Origin: Bartonella bacilliformis Ver097
GTDB lineage: Bacteria; Pseudomonadota; Alphaproteobacteria; Rhizobiales; Rhizobiaceae
Reading direction: 5' to 3'
DNA: 64,000 nucleotides
NCBI RefSeq assembly: GCF_000709795.1
Contig: NZ_KL503802.1
Location: 404,812-468,811, forward strand
The position numbers and the translations under genes are program-made. Positions 10,277 through 58,013 of this stretch are shown piece by piece (position 1 is the first letter of the stretch; the number at the start of each line of letters is the position of its first letter). The notes beneath the pieces are model-generated. The model was not told the origin of the DNA, did not search any database, and worked only from the letters and a program-made list of their open reading frames with translations.

Positions 10277-11352
10277 GGTTCTTGTCCTTGCAGGGGATCA
10301 ACATTAAAATCAAAGCCCTGTCCCCATAGATTATATTGATCACGTGGGAGATCTGCATAGGGTTGGCAAGCAAAAACAGCTGCATATATTTGTCGTGTCA
10401 TGACAGTTTTTTGATTTTCATCACCTTGAAGTGGGTCAATGATAGGCGTGCCTTGAATCATTCCGTTATTATCTAGTTGAAATTGTAATCGCACAATAGG
10501 ACGATTTTGTAAATTGCCACCAATAGCAACAAGTTTGAGCTTGCTTTGAATACAAGCGCCAACAAGATTTACCAGAGTTTGGGCCATGCGTTCTGAAGCG
10601 TTAATATCTTTTTTTGCCCCTATTGCTTCTGGTTGTTGTGAGCGTTTTGCCCCTCCGCCTTGTGTGCGAGCACGATTTATAAGATCATTTTTCTCGAGTG
10701 CGAGAATATCTTCAATGGTTTGTTCACCTTTTGGGGGTGAAGCTTGTGCTGTTTGTTGAGGGCGTTTTGGTGAGGCTTTAGCTTTAATCCGTGGCAGAGG
10801 AACTGTTTCTGGTACAGGTGTGAGTGGTGGGGGTATTATTGCCGGAGCCGGTTCTGGTTGTGCTAGTTCCGATTGCGTTGGCTCTGGCTGTATTTGTTCG
10901 GATTGCGTTGGCTTTGGCTCGGGTTGTAGTCGCTCTGGTTGAACACTCTCTTCTTGTGTTTTTTGTGGAAGCACAGGAAGTTCTGCAGCATCCTTTTCAC
11001 CAAAGATCGGAGATGCTGCATCAATTTGGCGTAGTTTTTCTTGCTTTTTAAAAGGGGCAGCAAGATCCATTTCTCCATCACCCACATGACGTGCTTGCTC
11101 TTTTTCCTGCAGTTTGGTTGTCGGATTTAGGGCAGGGCTTTCACCAGGAGGAGCGTTTAATGAACCTTGTTGGAGAGACAGCTCCTGACTAAGAGGCGTT
11201 AACGTAATGGGTACAGCTTCCAGTTGATGAGAAGGTAAAGAAGGCGAATGGATAAAATGCATCATTCCCAAAATGAGAAAGATGATATGAGCTGCAAAAG
11301 AAAAAGCTAAGCTCCATTTCATGGAATGATGAGAATTTTTTTCCATCAGCAT
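10273..11352 (-). CDS. tolA: Tol-Pal system protein TolA
   Basis: A 359-residue protein with one N-terminal membrane helix (about 13-33, [20 protein letters not shown]), a long Pro/Glu/Gln-rich periplasmic stalk and a C-terminal TolA domain ([36 protein letters not shown]). It transmits proton-driven TolQR motion to Pal and TolB. The stalk contains short degenerate [12 protein letters not shown] repeats at about 138-175, probably a variable expansion. It overlaps tolB by 4 bp and lies 104 bp after tolR. Confidence 0.93.
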
Positions 11353-37679: not shown

Positions 37680-38234
37680 TTATTTCTGTCCTGTTGAACC
37701 AAAGCCGCCAGTGCCGCGCCCTGTGTCAGGTTGATTGCTAAGATCTGTTTGAGAAGAGGTCCGATCTGAATTTGGGTCCAACAGGCGAACTTCCACCTGA
37801 GTTACAGGAGCGATGACCGTTTGGGCAATGCGCATTCCACGTTCAATGATAAAGTCTTCTTGGCCTAAATTGATCAGCAACACTTTTACCTCACCACGGT
37901 AATCACTATCAATCGTGCCTGGGGTATTGAGGCAGGTGATGCCGCTCTTTAAAGCTAAGCCAGAGCGTGGGCGTATTTGTGCTTCAAAACCAGGGGAGAG
38001 ATGAAAAATAAGACCTGTGGGGATAAGAGCCCGCTGCCCGGGGAAGAGTGTGATGCTCTCATTTTCAGGAAGCGCGGCCCGTAGATCAAGACCTGCTGAG
38101 CCTTCTGTGGCATAATGGGGAAGTGCTAGACCTTGTCCATGTTCAAGGCATTGAACCCATAAAGGTAATTTTTGCGATGGAGAAGAAGAATTGTGTGCGT
38201 CTTGCAAAGACATGTGGGGATGATGATCAGACAT
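37680..38234 (-). CDS. dut: dUTP diphosphatase
   Basis: A 184-residue trimeric dUTPase with all five motifs: [37 protein letters not shown] and the C-terminal [10 protein letters not shown]. It hydrolyses dUTP to dUMP and pyrophosphate. The first 25 residues are extra relative to the usual length, so translation may start later (a second Met is at MSLQD). Confidence 0.95.
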
Positions 38235-39195
38235 GACAAAAGATTTCCAAAACAGTAAAAAACAGACAAAATGTTAACACCAGCATGTTAAAAAAAACGA
38301 GCCGATAAATGGCGCACTCCATGGGATGAGCTGTGCTCCACAGTGTATACGTTACCAAAAAAATGTCTGTAATAAAAACCAAAATTCCATCAAGAAGATG
38401 TTAATGTAACACTTGGCCCAAAAGAGGGAAGAGCAAGCAAGTATGGCTTAAGAGGGTGAAAGGCAAAGAACAGCCTAAATGATAAGAAGATGTTGACGTA
38501 GAATGGGAGGAGAAGATGTTGGGTGTGAGGCCATGAAAGGGCAGGGACGCAGCTGATGTGAGGCACAGCTTAAGAAGGGAAAAGGCATGTTCTAAAGGGT
38601 GAAAAGATGTTGGTGGTGAGGTGGCAGGGAAAGTGAGAGGCCATATGAAGTGGGCTGTCTTAAGAAGGCGAAGAGACATTGGTGGGGGGCATCCTAAAAG
38701 AGGAGAAGATGTTAGGTGAAGCTTTCTGAAAAGGATGAAGCAGGAACGGCTTAAGAAGGCAGCCGGTGCAAGGCGTGGATTAAGAGAGGGGAAGAAGAGT
38801 AGGGTTCAGCCTGAGAGAGGAAGAAGACCTTTATACGGCATGGCCTGAGAGAATGAAGGAAAGGTATGGCTTAAGAAGGTAAAAAATGTTGGTATGAAAG
38901 GTGGCAGGGAAGAGTGAGAGGCAATATGGAGTGGGCTATTTAAAGAAGGAAAGAAAACGTGTTGGTAGGAGCATGCCTAAAGGGAAAAATATATTGTATA
39001 AAGCCTGAAAGGGCGTAACATAGCTGATGTGACTCATGACCTTAAGAAGGGGACAGGGACGGCCTAAAGGACGAAAAGATGTTGGCAGTGAGGTGAGCGA
39101 AGAAAGAGGTGAGGAGTAACATTGTGTAAGGTACAATCTAAGAAGGAGAAGAGCAAGGCATGGCTTAAGGGCGAACCTTGGTTCCTCTTCCAGAT
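38235..39195. repeat. Degenerate repeat array downstream of the VIT gene
   Basis: From about 38400 to 39180 the plus strand repeats variants of cttaagaaggxgaaaagatgttggtggtgaggtggcaggg. Clear copies start near 38599 and 38893 (both followed by gtgagaggcxatatgxagtgggct). Copies of the preceding part (agctgatgtgaxxca) are near 38549 and 39020. At 38370-38396 ccaaaattccatcaag echoes the 3-prime end of the VIT gene (39226-39241), suggesting a duplicated gene end. Confidence 0.65.
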
Positions 39196-41907: not shown

Positions 41908-41992
41908 GCGGGTGTGGTGGAACTGGTAGACGCGCCAGACTCAAAATCTGGTTCCGAGAGGAGTGTCGGTTCGAGTCCGACCACCCGCACCA
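41908..41992 (+). tRNA. tRNA-Leu (CAA)
   Basis: An 85-nt class II tRNA with an encoded CCA end. The acceptor stem pairs gcgggtg with cacccgc. The anticodon arm is ccaga-ctcaaaa-tctgg with anticodon CAA. There is a long variable arm, and the T loop is ttcgagt. It lies at the left edge of the phage-derived module. Confidence 0.97.
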
Positions 41993-42408: not shown

Positions 42409-43041
42409 TTAAGACTTTGCTTTCATATAACTCCAATGAAGAGCCATCAAGTCCAAACAGTCGCGCAAATGATCCGCTAGGGAGTTTTGTTTGCGTTTGA
42501 CAGAGTTTAATTCTTTGATCGATAGGCCATAACCGACCACTTGCTCAACCAGGGCATAGCCGAGAATTCCAAGTTGAATTTTGATCTCTTGTAGCTGTTT
42601 GGTTGCTTCTATTTGGTACTCGATCTTGCCTTGATAAGGGGGGTTGCCGTCAACCTTTTGCCGGGTGAAATCAAAGCCCATATGCGCTTGTCCCTGTATT
42701 TGGTACCAATATTTATAGAAATGTTCTGCTGCCTTATATTGTGCTTTGCTGATATGCCCTTTGGCATATAATAGGGCAATGGGGCGGCTATGCGCATCGG
42801 CGATGGCTATGATGGTGCGTGGGTTTCTGGAACTCTCTTTATACGCTGGTTGGAAATATGGGTTGCTCGTTTCAATAGCGATAGCCTGTGTTTTTAAAGA
42901 CCCGAGACTTTGGGAGGATTTGCTTGAGTTTTGAGAGAATTGGCCTATTTTTTTTAAAGATTGTGCGACATCTTGCTTTGAATGCGCAACATCTTGCTTT
43001 TTTTGTTGCGGTGTTTTTACAGAATGAGCGTGTTTCTTCAT
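42409..43041 (-). CDS. Phage-related protein, DUF6456-like C-terminus
   Basis: A 210-residue protein with a polar Gln/Ser/Lys-rich N-terminus and a C-terminal part (from about residue 70) with SNPYFQPAYKE, IALLYAKGHISKAQYKAAEHFYKYWY and GYGLSIKELNSVKRK near the end. This order resembles the DUF6456-type proteins of rhizobial phages, in which a small helical domain is followed by an HTH-like segment. It is last of three minus-strand genes after the primase-helicase. The role is unknown. Confidence 0.6.
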   Translation of the reverse strand: MKKHAHSVKTPQQKKQDVAHSKQDVAQSLKKIGQFSQNSSKSSQSLGSLKTQAIAIETSNPYFQPAYKESSRNPRTIIAIADAHSRPIALLYAKGHISKAQYKAAEHFYKYWYQIQGQAHMGFDFTRQKVDGNPPYQGKIEYQIEATKQLQEIKIQLGILGYALVEQVVGYGLSIKELNSVKRKQNSLADHLRDCLDLMALHWSYMKAKS

Positions 43042-43105
43042 GGGATTCTCCTAAAAGAAAGATCATTAATCTTTGTGTGTTTGGAAAGCAGATGTAGCTG
43101 TGCAC

Positions 43106-45151
43106 CTAATGCACAGGGTTAGGAGTGAGGCTGCGAGGAGAGGCATCTTCAAGATAGCGGCGTAACCATGGCGTTTCTTCTGGTGAACAGCGATAACGGT
43201 AGCTTTGTGTATCAAACCACAGGCCGACCTTGCCTTCAAAATCACCGGAGCGTTGTTTGGCGATATTCATCACCACACCGGGGCGTTTGGTTAATTCTGC
43301 TTTTTCATGCAGCTGTTGTGTGGCAAAAATTTTATCTTCTAAAGGGCGGTTGCGCCAGATGGTGATGATGTTAAACGCATTGGCGCCAATTTCTGAAGCG
43401 CCTTTGATATCTTCTGTACCAGGGACATCTTTGTCGACACCGCTTTTACGTGCATGGGCAACAAGGTGAACGTGCACAGCGTTTAAGACAGCCCAGTCTA
43501 CTATTTTATAAACCGCTTGTTCTTGCCCGGTATAGTCATCAGCGGCGATGCCAAGTCGCATCAAACTGTCGATAATAAATTGGTCGCAGCCATATTTGGC
43601 ACGGCAATAGTCAAACACATCAAGAAGAGTTTCGACATTTGATTTGCCTACATGTTCGTACAAAATGAGACCGTGATCAAGAAAATGCAAAATCTGTTCA
43701 ATTTTTTCTTTTGTCGGGTGGCTAGTGCCCCCTGTTTGTTTGATAAGACGGCGCAAAGATTGCTCTCCTTTCATTTCTAAAGAGGCTAAACAAAGGCGGC
43801 TTTCCTGTGCGATCCAATGGGGGATACAGTCTGATAACAACTGACTTTTTCCGACCCCACTGGCGCCGCTCCATAAGGTTAATTCTGCTGGCCGAAACGA
43901 TAATTTCCCCTCTAACTTCGGGTAGGGCACGCTATAGCCTACATGCTGTTTTGGGTTTGGCCAAAAGAGTTCCAGCACTTTTCCCTTATAATCAGAGGCA
44001 TGGTGCAATCCTTCCGGCGTGAAGCTTTTTGCTTTTGCAAAGGCTTGCGCTATAGTGGCGGCATCTAGGCCTGCGGTTAAACAATCATTTGCATCCTTAT
44101 AAGGTAGACATACTCGGTAACAACGGTGGCGTCCAAGCCGGTTAGCAATGACCAGAGCGGCTTCTTCCCCCGGTGGGTCCATATCGGTTGCGAGATAAAT
44201 TTTTTCAAAAATCTCTAAATGATCAAATTCTTGTTCAATCCAGGCATGTTTGCCCCCTTTACCTCCTCCAAAGGGAAGAGATAAAGCCGGATATCCATAA
44301 GCTGCCAAAGAGAGAGCATCAATTTCCCCTTCAGTGATGACAAGATCACGCGTCTGCTTTGCACCCTGCGTTGGTGGAGGTGAGGAGGCTTGCTCCGCAG
44401 GTTTTTTTATGGGGATCTGCGGGGATGTTTGCACAGATAAGAAAGAAAGGTCATTCAAAGGCGCTTGCGTTGGTGGAAAGGCACAGTCACTCAAAGGAGT
44501 CTGCGAGGCCGGTGAGGATGATGGGGCCTGTGCAGGTCGGGAAAAGAGCTCATCCAAAGAATCCTGCGAAGCAGGGAAGAGGGCTTGCCAGCCAAATAAA
44601 ATCGGCTCACACTGCGCGGTAGTAGGCTTAGCTTTGGCTCCTGCTTCAGCGCGCCGGGCTTTCACCATGGCCAGTGTGCCATCAGGCTTATAAAAAGGAA
44701 AAAGGATGCTATTGCCCTCTTCTTTAATGCGGTAACGCGCTAAGATCTCTAGTGGTATACGCCGTTTATGGTGCAAATAGCTTTTCACCACACCGCTAGG
44801 GTCGTGACCTTTTGGGGGAGGCGGAAGACAATAAGTGCGGCGCGGCGCCATAAAGGGTTTTGGGCGGGAAAGATTAAGATAAGTATGTGCTTCCTCTAAC
44901 GCCGCTGAGAGGGGGATGCCTTTTACTGCACACCAGAGATCTAACAGATCCCCCCCAATTCCCTCAGCAAAATCATACCACAGGCCTGCTTTGTTGCCGC
45001 TTAAACAGAGCGATAAACTTTGCCCTGCTTCCCCGTGGATATTGCCAATGATCCAAGCATTGCCCTTTTTTCGCCCTTGCGGAAGAAGCATTTCAGCAAT
45101 GGCTTGCACGTGAAGCAAAAGTTTTTGTTTAACCTCAATAAGTGTGCTCAT
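43106..45151 (-). CDS. Phage primase-helicase (Toprim plus RecA-like ATPase)
   Basis: A 681-residue protein. The N-terminal primase-like part has GKGKxxxW-like and LWYDFAEGIGGDLLDLW segments but no CHC2 zinc ligands. The Toprim domain (about 270-345) has VITEGEIDALSLAAYG and YLATDMDPPGEEAA. The helicase core has Walker A GASGVGKS at 429-436, LASLEMKGEQSLRRL and FIIDSLMRLG. It resembles T7 gp4-type or alphaproteobacterial phage replicative primase-helicases. Residues about 195-265 are a Ser/Pro/Gln-rich linker with degenerate repeats (QTPLSDCAF, QAPLNDLSF). Confidence 0.87.
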   Translation of the reverse strand: MSTLIEVKQKLLLHVQAIAEMLLPQGRKKGNAWIIGNIHGEAGQSLSLCLSGNKAGLWYDFAEGIGGDLLDLWCAVKGIPLSAALEEAHTYLNLSRPKPFMAPRRTYCLPPPPKGHDPSGVVKSYLHHKRRIPLEILARYRIKEEGNSILFPFYKPDGTLAMVKARRAEAGAKAKPTTAQCEPILFGWQALFPASQDSLDELFSRPAQAPSSSPASQTPLSDCAFPPTQAPLNDLSFLSVQTSPQIPIKKPAEQASSPPPTQGAKQTRDLVITEGEIDALSLAAYGYPALSLPFGGGKGGKHAWIEQEFDHLEIFEKIYLATDMDPPGEEAALVIANRLGRHRCYRVCLPYKDANDCLTAGLDAATIAQAFAKAKSFTPEGLHHASDYKGKVLELFWPNPKQHVGYSVPYPKLEGKLSFRPAELTLWSGASGVGKSQLLSDCIPHWIAQESRLCLASLEMKGEQSLRRLIKQTGGTSHPTKEKIEQILHFLDHGLILYEHVGKSNVETLLDVFDYCRAKYGCDQFIIDSLMRLGIAADDYTGQEQAVYKIVDWAVLNAVHVHLVAHARKSGVDKDVPGTEDIKGASEIGANAFNIITIWRNRPLEDKIFATQQLHEKAELTKRPGVVMNIAKQRSGDFEGKVGLWFDTQSYRYRCSPEETPWLRRYLEDASPRSLTPNPVH

Positions 45152-45345
45152 GGTTTCTCCCCTGACGAGAATGTGTTCCTGATTAGAATGTGATTAGATC
45201 TGCATCGTTAGTGTGAATGGGTTGTGGTGTAAGTAGGTTGCTATAGTTGCTGATGGGTGAATGGGTGCGGTGTTGTTGGGCCATGAGTGTAGTGGATTTT
45301 TGTGGTTAGTGTGTGAATGGGTTTTCATTGTTGGTGATAATGGGG
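45152..45345. repeat. Iteron-like repeats between the primase and DUF1376 genes
   Basis: The word gtgtgaatgggtt occurs at 45211-45223 and again exactly 100 bp later at 45311-45323; gtgaatgggtg lies between them at 45257-45267. Copies of gttagtg precede both full words. Directly repeated 11-13-mers next to replication genes are typical of phage or plasmid origins. This is an inference from pattern alone. Confidence 0.45.
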
Positions 45346-46656
45346 TTATGGTTTCTGGTTTGGATAATTGATCAGGCTTTGGTAAAATCTCTCTTCCCCT
45401 GTATGACGATTTGTTTGATGAGAAGGGACACGGAGAAGAGAGGGCGTGGGATAACACGTGTCTTGTGTCTCTTTTAACCGCTCAATCTCATAACGGCACC
45501 AGTTGCGCCATGTGGCTGGCCAATCCACTTTAAGCGCTTCTTTGCCGCTTTTGGCTCGCCAATAGTCGCGAAATTTCTTCTCTTGCCAACGGGCTTGCTC
45601 TTCGCTCAATCCTTCAGTCATGGCCATGCTGATATCAGCTTGCCAATCGGCAGGAAGACGATGGCCTTTTAAGCACCCTTTACGAGCAGAATGCTTTGGA
45701 GGAAGAGCAGAATTTTCAGAAATTATCGGACTTTTTAGAAATGGTGGGCTTATAACAGATGGTGAGCTTGTGATAGGTGTTGAAGTTGTAGCAAGTGTTG
45801 GACCTATAACAGCTGTTGAGGTTGTTGGTATAGGCTCTTGAGAAGGGGCAGAAGACCAAGAGGGAGAAGAGCATGAAGGAGCACAGTAGAGGGCATAAGA
45901 GGAGGAATTGTCTGCCGAGAAAGAAGCCTTGTTTTGCTGTTTTTGTGAAACACCGTTAGGTGTTTCTTTTTCTTTCTTCTGAGCTTCTGAGTTATAGGTC
46001 TCATCTGTTCTACATGTGTTGAGCAGCTGTTGAGGTGTTGCATTGATTTTCTTACGTTTTTGCGCTGAAGAACGGCCAGCCAATGATTTTTGCTTCAGTA
46101 ATTTTGCACGCTCACGAAAGATACTGTCACAGCGCTTATTCCATAAGCCATTGGCGAGAGGGATAATCTTGCCTTCTGCGATCAGAATATTGAGTGCGTT
46201 GAGAAAGGTGCGTTTGTCACATCCGCAAAGCCGCGTTAATCTTTGTGTTGAGAGGTCTAAGGGGTGGCCTCTGGCATACATTTCATTGAGTAAAATGGTG
46301 TAAATGCCAATTTCATGCGCACGCATACCACGGACACCACCTAGAAAATCATTTTGATACCAACAGACATAGGGAAGAATAGAAGATTCATAATGCGGTG
46401 TTTCTTCTATGGCGGATGAGGTTGTAGCAACAGGAGATGCTGCTAGAAGAGGAGCAGATGCAGGTGCTGGGGATGCTGTTGCTGGAGCGGATGAAGGTGC
46501 TAAAGACACCGCCGCAACGGTTTCCGAAAAAAATAACCCCGAAGAAGGAACGGGTGTTGAGGATAAGGTTGCAGTGCAAAGAGCTTGTTGATGGGCTGTG
46601 TCTCGGGAAGAGGTTTTGTACATGGTGCAAATCAACTTTCTTATTGTTTCATCCAT
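45346..46656 (-). CDS. Phage replication protein with DUF1376 (YdaU-like) domain
   Basis: A 436-residue protein. The DUF1376 domain is at about 95-205: YVCWYQNDFLGGVRGMRAHEIGIYTILLNEMYARGHPL (in two stretches), winged-helix-like RLCGCDKRTFLNALNILIAEGKI, then KSLAGRSSAQKRKK. The C-terminus (about 365-415) has SEEQARWQEKKFRDYWRAKSG and WPATWRNWCR, typical of phage replication-initiation proteins. Two low-complexity segments (Ala/Pro/Ser-rich at 45-85 and Ser/Thr/Pro-rich at about 250-310) flank the domain. It is first gene of the minus-strand replication operon, divergent from the repressor. Confidence 0.8.
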   Translation of the reverse strand: MDETIRKLICTMYKTSSRDTAHQQALCTATLSSTPVPSSGLFFSETVAAVSLAPSSAPATASPAPASAPLLAASPVATTSSAIEETPHYESSILPYVCWYQNDFLGGVRGMRAHEIGIYTILLNEMYARGHPLDLSTQRLTRLCGCDKRTFLNALNILIAEGKIIPLANGLWNKRCDSIFRERAKLLKQKSLAGRSSAQKRKKINATPQQLLNTCRTDETYNSEAQKKEKETPNGVSQKQQNKASFSADNSSSYALYCAPSCSSPSWSSAPSQEPIPTTSTAVIGPTLATTSTPITSSPSVISPPFLKSPIISENSALPPKHSARKGCLKGHRLPADWQADISMAMTEGLSEEQARWQEKKFRDYWRAKSGKEALKVDWPATWRNWCRYEIERLKETQDTCYPTPSLLRVPSHQTNRHTGEERFYQSLINYPNQKP

Positions 46657-47080
46657 TTCTATTCAGATAAAAAACATTAAATGATGTTTTTATGTCTTTT
46701 TATGTTTGTGGGAGATGCAGGAAAAGTTTACTATTTTGTAAGATGTTTCTGGTTTGCTTTGCTTTTGTTGCAATTTGTTCTGTTAAATAATCTTATTTTT
46801 CATTAGACCCTGTGAGTGCAATTCTATACGCTTATGAGTATATTGTTGTACAACTTTAAATTGCAAAGCAACAAAGGACAAAGAATACAAAAGTGAAGAC
46901 ATGCGAGTTTTTGGGAGCGCCTGTCTGCATCCTTTAGGGTGATAAATGGTTGGTTAATCAAATAAAGTGCAGTTCCCCCCGAAAATAAAATGTGTCCTAT
47001 AAATGTATATCCTTTTTAGAGGATATTGCAAGATAAATTTATAAAACAATATGTATTTTTTTAGACAGCTATAGGATGAA
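46657..47080. promoter_or_regulatory. Divergent control region between replication operon and repressor
   Basis: A 424-bp AT-rich region between divergent genes. It holds the palindrome gttgtacaac (46845-46854), a repeated ttgcaaagcaacaa/ttgctttgc-like set (about 46755 and 46861), and the inverted repeat atatcc-N8-ggatat (47007-47026) about 55 bp before the repressor ATG. These are candidate operators. No good gene is seen; a 39-codon hydrophobic frame at 46681 is not convincing. Confidence 0.5.
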
Positions 47081-47398
47081 ATGATGAATATTGATGGTTG
47101 GCGTCAAAGATTGAGTGAAGTGCTCAAAAAAAGTGGACGGTCAAAACGGTCCATTTCTCTCTCAGCTGGAAAGGGAGCAGGCTACCTTCACTCTATCTTG
47201 TCTGAAGGAAAGGATCCAACTATTGAATCCCTTTCTGATGTTTGTAAAACAATTGATGTTAGTATGGGATACATTCTTTACGGGCAAGCTGCCAGCACAG
47301 AAGATCAAGAATTTATCGAGTTGATTTCAAAGATCTCTTCCGAGGAACGACAGGCGATTTTGACGCTTTTGCGCAAACCAAATGACGAAGTAAAATAA
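47081..47398 (+). CDS. Phage-type HTH repressor (Cro/CI-like)
   Basis: A 105-residue protein with a helix-turn-helix of XRE type: RLSEVLKKSGRSKRSISLSAG, GAGYLHSILSEGKDPTIESLSDVCKTIDV. There is a short C-terminal helical extension (EDQEFIELISKISSEERQAILTLLR). It lacks a LexA-like peptidase domain, so it is not a self-cleaving repressor. AGGA lies just before two tandem ATGs. It is divergent from the replication operon, the usual lysogeny-control layout. Confidence 0.85.
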   Translation: MMNIDGWRQRLSEVLKKSGRSKRSISLSAGKGAGYLHSILSEGKDPTIESLSDVCKTIDVSMGYILYGQAASTEDQEFIELISKISSEERQAILTLLRKPNDEVK

Positions 47399-47709
47399 GG
47401 AGTGCTCTTTTCTTTGTGGCATCAAGAGTTTTCCAATGGTTAAGTAAATCGGAATCATTCATTTTAGCTTTTCCCCCCCGTTTGGGTTGCTGTGATTAGA
47501 AACAATAGGAATTATAACAGCACAGTAGAGAATAAGGTGTAGGATATTTTCATTCTTACAAAGCTATTTGGATGTCTGATAAATTGAAAAATATCTTTTT
47601 AAAAGGATAAAATTGATTGACATCTCTCCCATAGAGGAGATAAGACTAAAGCTATATTTGACCATGTCAAGACTAAAGCTGCGTTTTATTACGATCTAAG
47701 GGGGAAAAA
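47399..47709. other. Spacer with a phage-type promoter
   Basis: About 310 bp. TTGACA at 47617-47622 is the main signal. The phrase aagactaaagct occurs twice (47642-47653 and 47669-47680), just downstream of that promoter. No gene is supported. Confidence 0.45.
47617..47645 (+). promoter_or_regulatory. Predicted promoter with overlapping inverted repeat
   Basis: TTGACA (47617-47622) is followed after 17 bp by ataaga (47640-47645), or after 18 bp by taagac. The spacer contains tctcc-N6-ggaga (47625-47629 and 47636-47640), placed where a repressor would block RNA polymerase. It shares tagagga with the inverted repeat upstream of the repressor. Confidence 0.45.
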
Positions 47710-48123
47710 ATGATCAAACATATACCGTTCGTTAAAGAGGATGAAATTCTCATTATTCTCTGTGAGGGTGAAGAGGGCGATCTCTATATTGGGCCTATTG
47801 AAACTTCCGAAGAGGTGCTTGATTTTGTCGATAATCGAGAGGCTGTGCAGAGGCTTTTGCGGCTTGATTTAACAACGCTCCATGCTGATGATGTCAGTGA
47901 AAGTGTCGCCGATATCTATGTTGCACTTTCTGATATGGCCGAAAAGACAGAGTCTCTGCAGCCTTTCATTGTAAATAGTGAAGCTTATCACGACTATTTA
48001 GAGCAACAAAATAAACAAGCTTATCATGATACGCTCTATGGCTCTTATGAACAACAGCATCGTCTCCGCTTTAGTGATATCTTGTCGGCTCCTGATCATC
48101 TTTTTGATGAGCAGGAGGGATAA
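47710..48123 (+). CDS. Hypothetical acidic protein in the phage module
   Basis: A 137-residue acidic protein with a strong AAGGGGG ribosome site 5 nt before the ATG. The N-terminus looks like a small beta domain (VKEDEILIILCEGEEGDLYIGPI); the rest is helical (EEVLDFVDNREAVQRLLRL, ESVADIYVALSDMAE). I do not recognise the family. It lies 4 bp before the next small gene and shares its promoter. Confidence 0.7.
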   Translation: MIKHIPFVKEDEILIILCEGEEGDLYIGPIETSEEVLDFVDNREAVQRLLRLDLTTLHADDVSESVADIYVALSDMAEKTESLQPFIVNSEAYHDYLEQQNKQAYHDTLYGSYEQQHRLRFSDILSAPDHLFDEQEG

Positions 48124-48127
48124 AGAT

Positions 48128-48328
48128 ATGCAAAGCTATCTTATGATCCTTGCTTATGGGGTGCCCCTTTATTACGTGGGCAGACAGCACGACACTATCC
48201 AGCTTGATCCACAAAAACATCAGGCCTTTCTCTTCCCTTCACAAAAAGAGGCAGAAGGTACTGTGCAGGCCTTGGCTTATGATCTCTGTGATTTTTTTGA
48301 TCTCTTCGAGATAGAAAGTGTTTCTTAA
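48128..48328 (+). CDS. Small hypothetical protein in the phage module
   Basis: A 66-residue protein starting MQSYLMILAYGVPLYYVGRQ and ending DLFEIESVS. GGAGGG lies 7 nt before the ATG at 48128; the longer frame upstream overlaps the previous gene and is rejected. The family is not recognised. The tight spacing suggests it is co-expressed with the preceding acidic protein. Confidence 0.65.
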   Translation: MQSYLMILAYGVPLYYVGRQHDTIQLDPQKHQAFLFPSQKEAEGTVQALAYDLCDFFDLFEIESVS

Positions 48329-48714
48329 GAAGCACAGAGCTCTGGGTAAGGTGGGGGTGGATTTGCGAAGGGAAGCATAAGCTTTGCCAATAAAGAGAGC
48401 TAGGTTTGAAATGAGGAGCCGCAGGTAAGTGGCTTGCAAGAATAAGGGAAGCTGAGCTTTTTGGTAAGGTAGGGCTGGACTGGTGAGAGAGGAGGGCTGA
48501 GTCTGTGAAGGGAAGGATTGGTGAGAAAAGGGAGTTTGGCTTGTAAGAAGGGGCTTGTGAAAAGGGAAATGAAGTGTGCGAGCAAGTGGGCCTTGCGATT
48601 GCGATAAGATTAAGCCTCGAGAAGGGGGGCTTGAAAGTGTTGCAGGTAATGGGCCTGCAAGAATATGGGGCATGGTGTGCCCACTGGAGAGAAATTTTAT
48701 CAAGGAATAAGACA
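48329..48714. repeat. Purine-rich degenerate spacer before the exonuclease
   Basis: About 385 bp made of variants of ggcttgxgaxaaggg and gagggaaggxttggtgag. Similar words occur in the spacer after the exonuclease (49375-49995). Long antisense frames here reflect base bias. Confidence 0.5.
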
Positions 48715-49374
48715 ATGCCCATATGCATCGAATGTCAGCAAGGAACAGAGGAATGGCGCCAAGTCCGCAGGGGGGTGATAACCGCTTCTGTGTTTGAAAT
48801 GGTTATCGCACGGAAAAAAGATGGGCAACGATCCCAAAAATATCATTCTGTGATGATGAAGCTTGCTGGGGAGAGAATTACCGGAAAAATTGTTGACGAG
48901 GGAACAACTATGCCAATGCGCCGCGGTACAGAATTAGAACCAAAAGCTCGCCAGTTTTATGCAGCGCTCACCAACACAGAGCCTGAATGTGTTGGGTTTC
49001 TCTTGGCGGATGACCGTAAAAAAGGATTTTCACCTGATGCGCTTATCGGGGCAAATGGGCTGCTGGAAATTAAAACAAAAAAGCCTGAAATTCTAATCCC
49101 GCATTTTTATCAAAATATATTTCCTGTTGAGCATAAAGCCCAGTGTCAGGGAGGATTATGGATTGCGCAACGCGAATGGGTAGATTTAATGCTTTATTGG
49201 CCGGGGATGCCCCCTTTGATCAAACGTGCTTACCGTGATGAAGTCTATATTCGTAAGCTAGACAATGAGATTAATCGTTTTAATGAAGCTTTGGAAAGAA
49301 TGGTGCAGGCGATCAAGCAGGTTGGTGAAAGGAGCCAGGATATTTTCAGAAAATATGAAACAATCAGGGGATGA
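48715..49374 (+). CDS. YqaJ-type (lambda exonuclease family) viral recombinase nuclease
   Basis: A 219-residue nuclease of the PD-(D/E)xK YqaJ/lambda Exo family: QQGTEEWRQVRRGVITASVFE, MRRGTELEPKARQFYAALTN, catalytic Asp108 in GFSPDALI and the ExK pair Glu118/Lys120 in LLEIKTKKP, then QCQGGLWIAQREWVDLMLYWPG. It degrades one strand of duplex DNA for single-strand annealing. I chose the ATG at 48715 (AAGGA about 8 nt upstream) over 48574 because the domain begins there. No RecT/Beta partner is seen. Confidence 0.87.
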   Translation: MPICIECQQGTEEWRQVRRGVITASVFEMVIARKKDGQRSQKYHSVMMKLAGERITGKIVDEGTTMPMRRGTELEPKARQFYAALTNTEPECVGFLLADDRKKGFSPDALIGANGLLEIKTKKPEILIPHFYQNIFPVEHKAQCQGGLWIAQREWVDLMLYWPGMPPLIKRAYRDEVYIRKLDNEINRFNEALERMVQAIKQVGERSQDIFRKYETIRG

Positions 49375-49995
49375 GGTCTACTGTCTAGCGGGGTGCTAAG
49401 TTTGTGAGGGAGCAGCTCGGTGCGGATCTAAGTGCAGGAAGGGAGCTGAATGGGGAGAGTTTGCGAGAGCCAGCAAGCCAGACGAGCTTGCAAAGAAGTT
49501 TGAAGGCTTACGAGGAAGTGAAGATGAGATTTGGCACGGGTGTGACAGCAAGCCAGGGAAAAAGCGGGAATAAGATTTGCTGTTTAGCGGGGTGTTGAGC
49601 TTGCGAGGAATCAGGAAATAAAGTTTGGCACAGGTGTAACAGCGAAATTACAAGGAAGTGGGGGCTCCAAGATGTCAAAAACTGTTCTGGGATGGCATGC
49701 CGCTATGCAAATTATAAGGTTTTTGTGTAAGGTGAGTTTCTGCCCGCGTGTGCAGAAAACCAGAAGGATAAAGAGCTGGATGTTAAGAAAAGCCAGCAAG
49801 ACTTGCAGCTAAATGCAGGAAGATCCATTCTTGAATTAAAGATAAAGGGCGTGAGTGAAGATAAGGAAACAGGAGTAAAAGCCTTAAGGTTTGCGTGCTT
49901 GTAAAAGCTAGCAGGAAAAAGAGCTTGCGAAAAGGGGAAGTTGGGCTTGTGAGGAAGCGGGGATGAGGTTCGGTGCAAGGGAAAGAAAATAGACA
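49375..49995. repeat. Degenerate repeats after the exonuclease gene
   Basis: About 620 bp. The phrase ctgtxtagcggggtgxtxag recurs at about 49380 and 49579; tttggcacrggtgtracagc occurs at about 49531 and 49624; and gcttgtgaggaagcggggatgagg at about 49946 echoes a copy near 49497. No gene is supported. Confidence 0.6.
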
Positions 49996-50070
49996 TGGTG
50001 CTGCGAGAGAGGATTGAACTCTCGACCTCTCCCTTACCAAGGGAGTGCTCTGCCACTGAGCTACCGCAGC
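49996..50070 (-). tRNA. tRNA-Thr (GGT)
   Basis: A 75-nt tRNA with encoded CCA. The acceptor gctgcgg pairs with tcgcagc. The anticodon arm is ctccc-ttggtaa-gggag with anticodon GGT, and the T arm has gttcaatcc. It lies at the right edge of the region holding the phage module. Confidence 0.97.
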
Positions 50071-55907: not shown

Positions 55908-56849
55908 GATCACCACCGTTTATAACGAAAGACCTAAATTCTCAAAAAGATACGAAGAGAAAGTTTTGACCCTCATCGTACTTGCTTTTTTCTTACGCAT
56001 TCTTGTTCAAAACTTAAGACTATTGTCATTGTACATTGTCAGACCACAGTTATTTTACTCTGTCGATTAGTGTACTTTGCCATCGTACCCTGTCAATCAG
56101 GGTATTTTGTCACTGTGTCCTGTCGATGATTCCACTTTGTCACTTGAGTCTTCTTCCTTAAAAGCAATGCAAAAAAAACTCTGCCTTCTCTTAAAAAACA
56201 AAAGCTTGCCTAAGGACAATGAAACCCAACAAGAGAACAATGAAATCGAACAAGATAATGAGTAAGCGAAAATCGCAAAAAATCTGCAATTCTTCTAACA
56301 AGAAGTCTTTACCTTGTCAACTCAACAGTTTTCACAAAATCAAGAATAAAGGGGGCTGAAGAGGGAGACAAAAATGGAGGGGAAAGCAGGAGGCAGGAGC
56401 AAAAAAAAAGACAAGAGGGTTGTTGAGTAGGGGAGAAAGAAAGAGGAAGCTGAAAAAGAGGAGAGAAGCGGTAAGAATGGAGGAATGAGCAAAAGTGAGC
56501 TAAGAATAACAGGAGGAGCCAAAAGAGAAGGAGTGAGAAGTAAGAGAGAAAAGCAAGAGGAGAGGAAAATAGGACCAGAGAAAAAAGGAGGAAGGTTAAG
56601 AAGGGACTGAAAAATGAGCCAAGAATAACGGAGAAGCCAAGGGAGAAGAAGAGGCTAAGAAGGAGGGAGGAGTAAAAATGGGAGTAAGCTAAAAATAAAA
56701 GAGGGCTGAGAAAGGAAAATCAAGAAGAATGGGTTGAGAGGGGCCAAGAATGAAAAGGAATTGAGGAAGTCTTGAGTTGGATCATTGGGGAGAAAGTGTT
56801 GAAGAATGTCTGGACTTAAAGTGGTGAGGGATGAGAATTCATCTCTTCT
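55908..56849. repeat. rpmJ-purK spacer: 30-bp tandem repeat and homopurine tract
   Basis: Three degenerate 30-bp units occupy 56057-56086, 56087-56116 and 56117-56146, each with ctgtcgat-like and ttttgtcac-like cores, plus a shorter preceding copy. From 56340 to 56800 the plus strand is nearly pure A/G; gagcYaagaataac recurs at 56497-56510 and 56616-56629. A 62-codon frame at 56077-56265 covers the repeat and I do not accept it as a gene. Confidence 0.65.
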
Positions 56850-58013
56850 TTAAGCAGAGTGTGTCGCTGGCCCGGTTAAGCGGATGATATGCCCCATTTT
56901 TCGTTCTGGCTGTACTGATTTTTTGCCATATAAATGCACTGATGTATTCTCTTGCATCAGAGCAGAGACGTAATCATCCAAATTATTGCCAAGAAGATTG
57001 ATCATTTCGCAGTTGCTATGGCGCTCTGTATTGCCCAGAGGAAGGCCACAAATGGCTCGGATATGTTGTTCAAACTGCGAGGTCACACAGGCTTTTTGCG
57101 TCCAATGGCCAGAATTGTGAACACGAGGCGCCAGTTCATTGACCAATAATCGCTCGTCAGACAAAACAAAAAATTCGATACACAGCACACCAACATACTC
57201 AAGCGCCTGCAACACACGCGTGCTGACCTCATACGCGGCTTTCTGCACTGATTGTGGAACAGCTGAGGGAACACACGCTTTATGCAGAATGCCATTCTTG
57301 TGTTGATTTTCTGAGCAATCATAAAATGCAACAGTCCCGTGTGGATCACGAGCAGCAATAACAGAAATTTCTGCTACAAAAGGCACAATCTCTTCTAAAA
57401 TAGAAGGCGTCTTTTCAAGCTCTATTGAGAGTGCGGCAATCATTTGTGGACTTGGATTGTGAAGAGATTGCTGCATTTTGCCATCATAGCCAAAGCGGCG
57501 TGCTTTCAAAAGGCCATGGCCCCTAAATCCATTGTTATTGAGTCCGTTGTTGTTGAGTTCATGGCTATTGAGCGCAGCAAGACCTGCCAACAAAGAAGCT
57601 TGATCTTGCACCGCATGCCAGGATGCTGTCTCGATACCATGCTCATTGAGAAAACTTTTCTCTAAAACTCGATCTTGCGAAATTTTCAACACTTTTGATG
57701 ATGGATAAAGACGACACGCTTTTTCTATCCATTGAATCGTTGTCACGGGGAGATTTTCAAATTCATACGTTACAACATCGCACAGGTCTACCAATTGCTG
57801 CAAAGCGGCCCTATCATCATAGTCCGCAACCATGTGATGGTTAGCAGTTTGCGCTGCTGGACATTGTATTTCAGGGCATAAGATAACCGTTTTAAAGCCA
57901 AGCTCAGCGGCAGCTATGGCTAACATGCGTGCAAGTTGTCCCCCTCCAATCACACCAATTGTGCTTCCTGGTTTTAAAGGATCAGAGATATTGATCACCG
58001 TAGTCACGCTCAA
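56850..58013 (-). CDS. purK: N5-carboxyaminoimidazole ribonucleotide synthase
   Basis: A 387-residue ATP-grasp enzyme with [20 protein letters not shown] at the start, [48 protein letters not shown] and the closing KMGHIIRL. It carboxylates AIR with ATP and bicarbonate in purine synthesis. The region with [19 protein letters not shown] (about 148-166) is a small Asn/Gly repeat replacing a normally short loop. The ATG overlaps the purE stop by 4 bp. Confidence 0.95.

Follow-up and report, generated by a model that had tools for sequence, protein, structure and literature searches.

Phage origins can fire in place and copy the flanking chromosome, as described for the escape replication of Salmonella prophages (PMC2697382). 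In Bartonella, run-off replication (ROR) is the subject of publications given as 2009 and 2013. In the available passages of a comparison of 16 genomes, ROR appears as a six-gene phage remnant with an exonuclease, a helicase and an origin; its gene set comprises the phage exonuclease, an O-like gene upstream of the helicase and small conserved genes, and ROR and BaGTA, a gene transfer agent encoded nearby, rank among the best-conserved innovations, BaGTA lying on the exonuclease side at a median distance of 32 kb (PMC3610622). A review, again as far as its available passages go, names the ROR genes brrA-G and the origin OriROR, describes ROR as retained in all modern Bartonella, and reports that BaGTA transfer is stopped by disrupting OriROR or some ROR genes, brrD being essential (PMC6899734). 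The present work concerns a stretch of 64,000 nucleotides from Bartonella bacilliformis Ver097 (contig C1:404812-468811 of a 1.39-Mb genome in six contigs; hereafter, the window), where a block of seven phage-type genes occupies positions 42409 to 49374. The original prediction, made from the letters of the window, took this block for a candidate run-off replication locus, a domesticated phage-derived amplification system of the kind linked to BaGTA, and that interpretation is supported. Judged by its sequence, the block is the published ROR locus and not a new find, because its genes, their order and their place near BaGTA match the published segment. Beyond this identity, we consider it probable, with some reserve, that the early operons of the locus are repressed by a predicted XRE protein, and that the last gene, a DUF6456 relative, switches on BaGTA 22 kb away.

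Identity and conservation of the locus

All of the genes claimed for the block were confirmed at their places by Pfam and PHROGs. The minus strand carries the last gene of a leftward operon, encoding a DUF6456-family protein (42409..43041; phrog_21451, E 1.1e-37) that we predict to be a late-gene activator or anti-terminator; a primase-helicase combining Toprim and DnaB-type helicase parts (43106..45151; phrog_239, E 8.6e-99; Toprim_2, PF13155, E 4.9e-9, above the cut-off, and DnaB_C slightly below it); and a DUF1376 replication-initiation, O-like protein (45346..46656; PF07120, E 3.3e-12; phrog_9327, primosomal protein, E 1.8e-35), whose gene is the candidate origin site in the published description (PMC3610622). 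The plus strand carries the predicted XRE-type repressor (47081..47398), a small conserved protein (47710..48123; phrog_23448, E 3.5e-18), a second small protein (48026..48328) that has a BLAST match in 32 of the 35 other loci and no family match in Pfam or PHROGs, and a YqaJ/lambda-type exonuclease (48574..49374; PF09588, E 7.6e-18). Two of these frames seem to extend too far upstream: in orthologues the start is near ATG 48715 for the exonuclease (219 amino acids) and near ATG 48128 for the second small gene (66 amino acids), and therefore the small genes need not overlap. Counted from either end, the XRE gene is the fourth of seven, which may bear on the naming of brrD. The last gene has BAnh1_11130 as its orthologue in B. 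australis, for which the published ROR tags start at 11070.

The BaGTA cluster was found outside the window at C1:475934-490425, within the scanned region C1:466000-511167. It lies on the exonuclease side, 22 kb beyond that gene (against the published median), and includes small-terminase-like, large terminase, portal, capsid, ejection protein, tail fibre and endolysin families. PF05876 and PF05136 missed the cluster, and a missing BaGTA was rejected on the PHROG terminase profile (phrog_2), which matches a single copy at C1:477086. The block itself holds no integrase, terminase, capsid or lysis gene in the Pfam and PHROGs scans, as had been claimed; the packaging, capsid and endolysin genes are those of BaGTA.

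All seven genes are intact, and wherever the contigs reach their order matches that of 35 named Bartonella loci identified through their primase; this recurrence of the same genes in the same order argues that the block is not a chance assembly. Among these 35 loci a match is missing for the second small gene in three, for the exonuclease in one and for the DUF6456 gene in two; in the last three the locus stops at a contig end on that side. Far from being restricted to one strain, the ROR genes follow BaGTA across the genus. Among 71 genomes the BaGTA terminase is present at 83-100% identity in 57, at 68-69% in nine, weakly in four and not at all in one, and ROR genes occur in 57/57 of the first group. 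A strong primase match is found in 55 of these 57; the other two (G275 and G276) have the DUF1376 gene and the exonuclease, and their contigs end 236 and 108 bases past the last DUF1376 match. Loss of ROR in these two genomes was accordingly rejected, the primase gap being most simply a matter of assembly because the contigs end there. The remaining 14 genomes comprise ten without a primase match, three with a short N-terminal match (E 1e-11 to 4e-9), and G270, with a relic of 109 residues (68% identical) at another place (L129:9202-9519).

Selection was measured by the median ratio of nonsynonymous to synonymous substitutions (dN/dS, or omega; Nei-Gojobori, pairs with dS 0.05-1). Columns less than 90% occupied were excluded, so 594 of 1439 columns were used for the primase and 279 of 1236 for DUF1376, and the variable linkers are unmeasured. 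The values were 0.092 for the primase, 0.122 for the exonuclease, 0.124 for the XRE gene, 0.168 and 0.242 for the first and second small genes, 0.184 for the DUF6456 gene and 0.231 for DUF1376, with 0.086 for murA as comparison. Purifying selection is thus core-like, the primase standing next to murA, and weaker for DUF1376 and the second small gene. Five non-Bartonella loci (L033, L035-L038) were left out of this and of the operator work described below. Together with the presence in 57/57 genomes of matching type, these values agree with the view that the locus is domesticated rather than prophage debris.

Predicted control of the early operons and of BaGTA

When the gap between the DUF1376 and XRE genes was aligned over 36 loci (the 35 and the window), a conserved 18-bp palindrome was found. 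In the window this predicted operator, O1 (47008..47025; 27.3 bits), lies in the spacer of a predicted leftward promoter PL on the minus strand (47004..47031; TTGCAA, 16 bp, TATACA). O1 is kept with at most one arm mismatch in 36/36 loci. The layout of PL is conserved over the 36 loci: TTG is kept in 35/36 and the second hexamer holds at least four of six positions in 35/36, the first hexamer doing so in only 14/36. The gap between XRE and the next gene likewise contains a site with at most one arm mismatch in 35/36 loci, predicted as operator O2 in the window (47592..47609; 24.2 bits). Downstream of it, a predicted rightward promoter PR was read from the window (47617..47644, plus strand; TTGACA, 16 bp, GATAAG), and its spacer holds a third predicted operator, O3 (47623..47640), degenerate here and kept in the spacer in other loci. 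In 34/36 loci the top-scoring promoter-like pair ahead of the exonuclease operon is TTGACA, 16 bp, TATAAG or GATAAG, with an operator in the spacer; in the window it ties with another candidate pair. The scoring matrix was built from the O1 and O2 calls in the 36 loci, one of the O2 calls (L017) being misplaced. Searched with up to one mismatch, the palindrome pattern occurs at only two places in the whole 1.39-Mb genome, O1 and O2, and the backward control pattern gives zero matches there. No ROR-type operator of at least 8 bits was found in the BaGTA-bearing region C1:466000-511167, two N stretches left aside. Read together, the palindromes in both promoter-like spacers suggest that one repressor governs two early operons.

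The last gene was claimed to be DUF6456-like. Direct matching did not bear this out, as described with the weaknesses below, but comparison of profiles through intermediates did. A profile search from 19 Bartonella sequences led to three unnamed proteins at 34-35% identity, and a second search from those three led to 115 proteins, three of them carrying PF20057 (DUF6456); when eight relatives were rescanned, three passed the PF20057 cut-off, two fell below it and three gave nothing. Compared with a 17-member set including the three PF20057 members, the profile scores 99.9% (E 7.3e-36, 173 columns). This supports the last gene product as a remote DUF6456 relative, of the GafA family. In the available passages of the publications, gafA, the direct activator of the gene transfer agent RcGTA, is annotated as DUF6456 (PMC9765227; PMC9638019), its Hyphomicrobiales relatives match in the C-terminal part (PMC9638019), GafA is matched in its N-terminal part by GafY and in its C-terminal part by GafZ (PMC9632790), and GafZ acts as an anti-terminator whose putative site falls between the -35 and -10 elements (PMC11150451). 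Besides, the Rhizobiales prophage L036, whose primase is related, encodes a NusG protein between its primase and terminase genes, and in L038 a NusG-type protein follows the primase; this placement fits a late-control slot. Searches of the PDB by sequence with two family alignments returned nothing in one case and a single chance-like match in the other.

Outside the block, the same type of operator seems to reach a further gene in other genomes. Close relatives of a phrog_15385 protein (72-100%) occur in 40 genomes, for instance at L136:4671-5213, counting the listed matches of at least 72%, one per genome, with weaker paralogues left out. Within the 1200 bases upstream, a ROR-type operator of at least 14 bits is found in 33/40, the corresponding fraction in shuffles being 0.004. 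For the 28 genomes in which this gene was paired with the primase on one contig, the distance between both is 4.4-34.9 kb, and the gene stands on the primase side in every case; the genome of the window and G216 lack it. From its position one might guess at a late regulator. Its inclusion as a further DUF6456 member was tried and could not be established, with 15.6% against the ROR protein and 2.8% against the DUF6456 set. Additional BaGTA-like terminase copies occur commonly across the genus, and several have a phrog_15385 gene immediately upstream, the paralogues in G214, G234, G244 and G247 lying 0.9-2.9 kb before such copies.

In the literature passages found, no precedent was seen for a palindrome in the 16-bp spacers of both predicted early promoters, for the proposed DUF6456 assignment of the last gene or for the predicted operator before the distal phrog_15385 gene; nor did the titles and abstract openings found contain a link between the last gene and GafA or DUF6456.

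Insertion site, origin signals and variation

The block lies between two tRNA genes, as originally described: tRNA-Leu(caa) at 41908..41992 on the plus strand as left boundary, and tRNA-Thr(ggt) at 49996..50070 on the minus strand as right boundary. The first is also the neighbour in ROR-free genomes that we call bee-type for their size, presumably belonging to the bee symbiont clade. Three ROR-free genomes (G212, G263, G265) have the order DedA gene, tRNA-Leu, other genes over 5.5-6.0 kb, tRNA-Thr and murA. In G263 the genes between both tRNAs encode ArsC, Sir2, an unassigned protein and a YkuD protein (L134); L131 and L135, also from ROR-free genomes, hold other genes there too. In G270, this tRNA-Thr is directly adjoined by an integrase prophage (PF00589, E 6e-24) that also carries YqaJ and ERF genes (L130:9343-13589); its exonuclease is 30% identical to that of ROR and has the same orientation. 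We infer that ROR descends from a prophage which entered at tRNA-Thr, the old neighbours being lost. No attachment-site (att) repeat was seen at the locus in the repeat search of the window.

Regarding the origin, no iteron array was found in the window. An origin with inverted repeats is expected inside the O-like gene of a ROR segment; here, one weak palindrome lies at 45620-45647, within the DUF1376 gene, with no significant suppression of synonymous changes there; over the seven genes such suppression was not significant, a stretch in the DUF6456 gene being marginal (p 0.03, uncorrected). G-rich, strand-biased stretches, some of them with repeated short motifs, were observed in the window at 38001-39000, 48330-48570, 49375-49990 and 56001-57000.

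The last gene product is 92% identical to a protein named as B. bacilliformis. Against the nearest genome, G216, the lowest identities are those of the two variable-linker genes, and proteins around the locus reach 80-100% (best local alignments). Over the window and loci L002-L041 the domains are kept and the linker lengths vary, with primases of 615-956 and DUF1376 proteins of 290-721 amino acids; the gap between both genes ranges from overlap to 2.2 kb, and gene ends are repeated in some loci. The primase match is split over two frames at G211:C1:311550-313552 and G244:C1:1487670-1489461, either a real break or a sequencing error.

Competing readings and relation to known systems

In the mechanism that we favour, the predicted XRE repressor would hold down two operons, one for the firing of a phage-type origin and one for the exonuclease. 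Upon release of the repressor in some cells, the DUF1376 initiator and the primase-helicase would start bidirectional replication into the chromosome, the exonuclease would process DNA ends, and the DUF6456 protein would resemble GafA in its action, targeting RNA polymerase at the promoter of BaGTA. Replication would then be coupled to particle production, one predicted early operon, that of the initiator, the primase-helicase and the DUF6456 protein, making both the DNA for packaging and the signal for building particles; one repressor would then govern replication and, via the DUF6456 protein, BaGTA. The predicted operators and the DUF6456 assignment offer a new and testable regulatory reading of a known system.

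Several results weigh against this mechanism. On the side of the repressor, of the claim of an XRE repressor the gene at its place stood, while the family assignment is itself weak (HTH_3, E 0.0042, under the cut-off, with weak phage repressor matches); the degenerate O3 scores 9.2 bits in the window, which alone is chance level (20 shuffled windows, maxima 4.3-14.7); the backward control pattern has matches in other genomes, five of them in G216; and a consensus promoter scan gave 3 matches compared with 3.8 in shuffles, neither of them PL nor PR. On the side of replication, the searches for palindromes, iterons and synonymous suppression found no origin mark, and GC skew is positive on both sides of the block. 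On the side of the activator, the last gene product and 18 orthologues gave no direct match to PF20057 at E<=10, and the last gene product no DUF6456 match in NCBIfam; the AlphaFold model of the DUF6456 protein is poor (mean predicted local distance difference test, pLDDT, 49.9); and no DnaA-like partner of the GafY kind was found by family scans among the seven genes, the rest of the genome not having been searched. No conserved motif was clear before the BaGTA small terminase in 18 genomes.

This failure to see a target site before BaGTA also favours a doubtful but serious alternative, according to which the locus is ROR and the DUF6456 protein does not act on BaGTA, being a relic of late control in the donor phage or a replication accessory, with BaGTA switched on by host regulators or by another phage-type gene. 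BaGTA is older than ROR, the bee-type genomes having BaGTA terminases at 68-69% without ROR, and in two of the three bee-type genomes checked the BaGTA small terminase is preceded, at 2.1 and 5.4 kb, by a phrog_15385 gene of the same orientation. Nevertheless, that gene is absent from the genome of the window, and the DUF6456 gene is kept by purifying selection (omega 0.184) even though the ROR locus lacks late genes. A locus of ROR ancestry that is silent in this species would agree with a GC skew that does not flip at the block, but the open frames, the kept operators and the same genes in the sister genome G216 make this improbable. As for random prophage debris, phage-type genes beside a tRNA and the integrase prophage of G270 at the same tRNA-Thr could recall such an origin, yet an order conserved in 36 loci, core-like dN/dS and the presence in every genome of the type leave it next to no probability, and it was rejected on conservation.

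Extending the favoured mechanism to other systems is a more tentative step, which we hold possible at somewhat less than an even chance: gene transfer agents with unrelated particles (BaGTA, and RcGTA or CcGTA) may be under one family of phage late-gene regulators, other Bartonella lineages having wired a second regulator into the same operator. Most RcGTA loci, according to the passages available, need full-length GafA (PMC9638019), which makes this extension slightly less probable and also counts against the mechanism itself. If true, separately domesticated gene transfer agents would share one phage-inherited class of activator.

Among known systems, the block resembles most directly the ROR (brrA-G) of B. 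grahamii, B. henselae and B. australis in gene content, order and place beside BaGTA; the species is another one here, and the predicted operators and the DUF6456 assignment are added by the present analysis. With GafA of Rhodobacter capsulatus and GafYZ of Caulobacter crescentus the last gene would share the DUF6456 family, but these proteins drive RcGTA-type clusters, whereas the last gene belongs to a phage replication operon, no DnaA-like partner being found among the seven genes. As in a lambda-type replication module, an O-like initiator precedes the helicase, and a predicted repressor would bind within two early promoters, at O1 in the spacer of PL and at O3 in that of PR (at the level of sequence, the consensus scan being negative); unlike that module, the block has a primase-helicase in place of a helicase loader, and neither late genes nor an integrase. 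Finally, it is like the escape replication of Salmonella prophages in its phage origin, which would fire in place with copying of the flanking chromosome, but that replication is an excision defect, whereas the ROR block is conserved and linked to a gene transfer agent.

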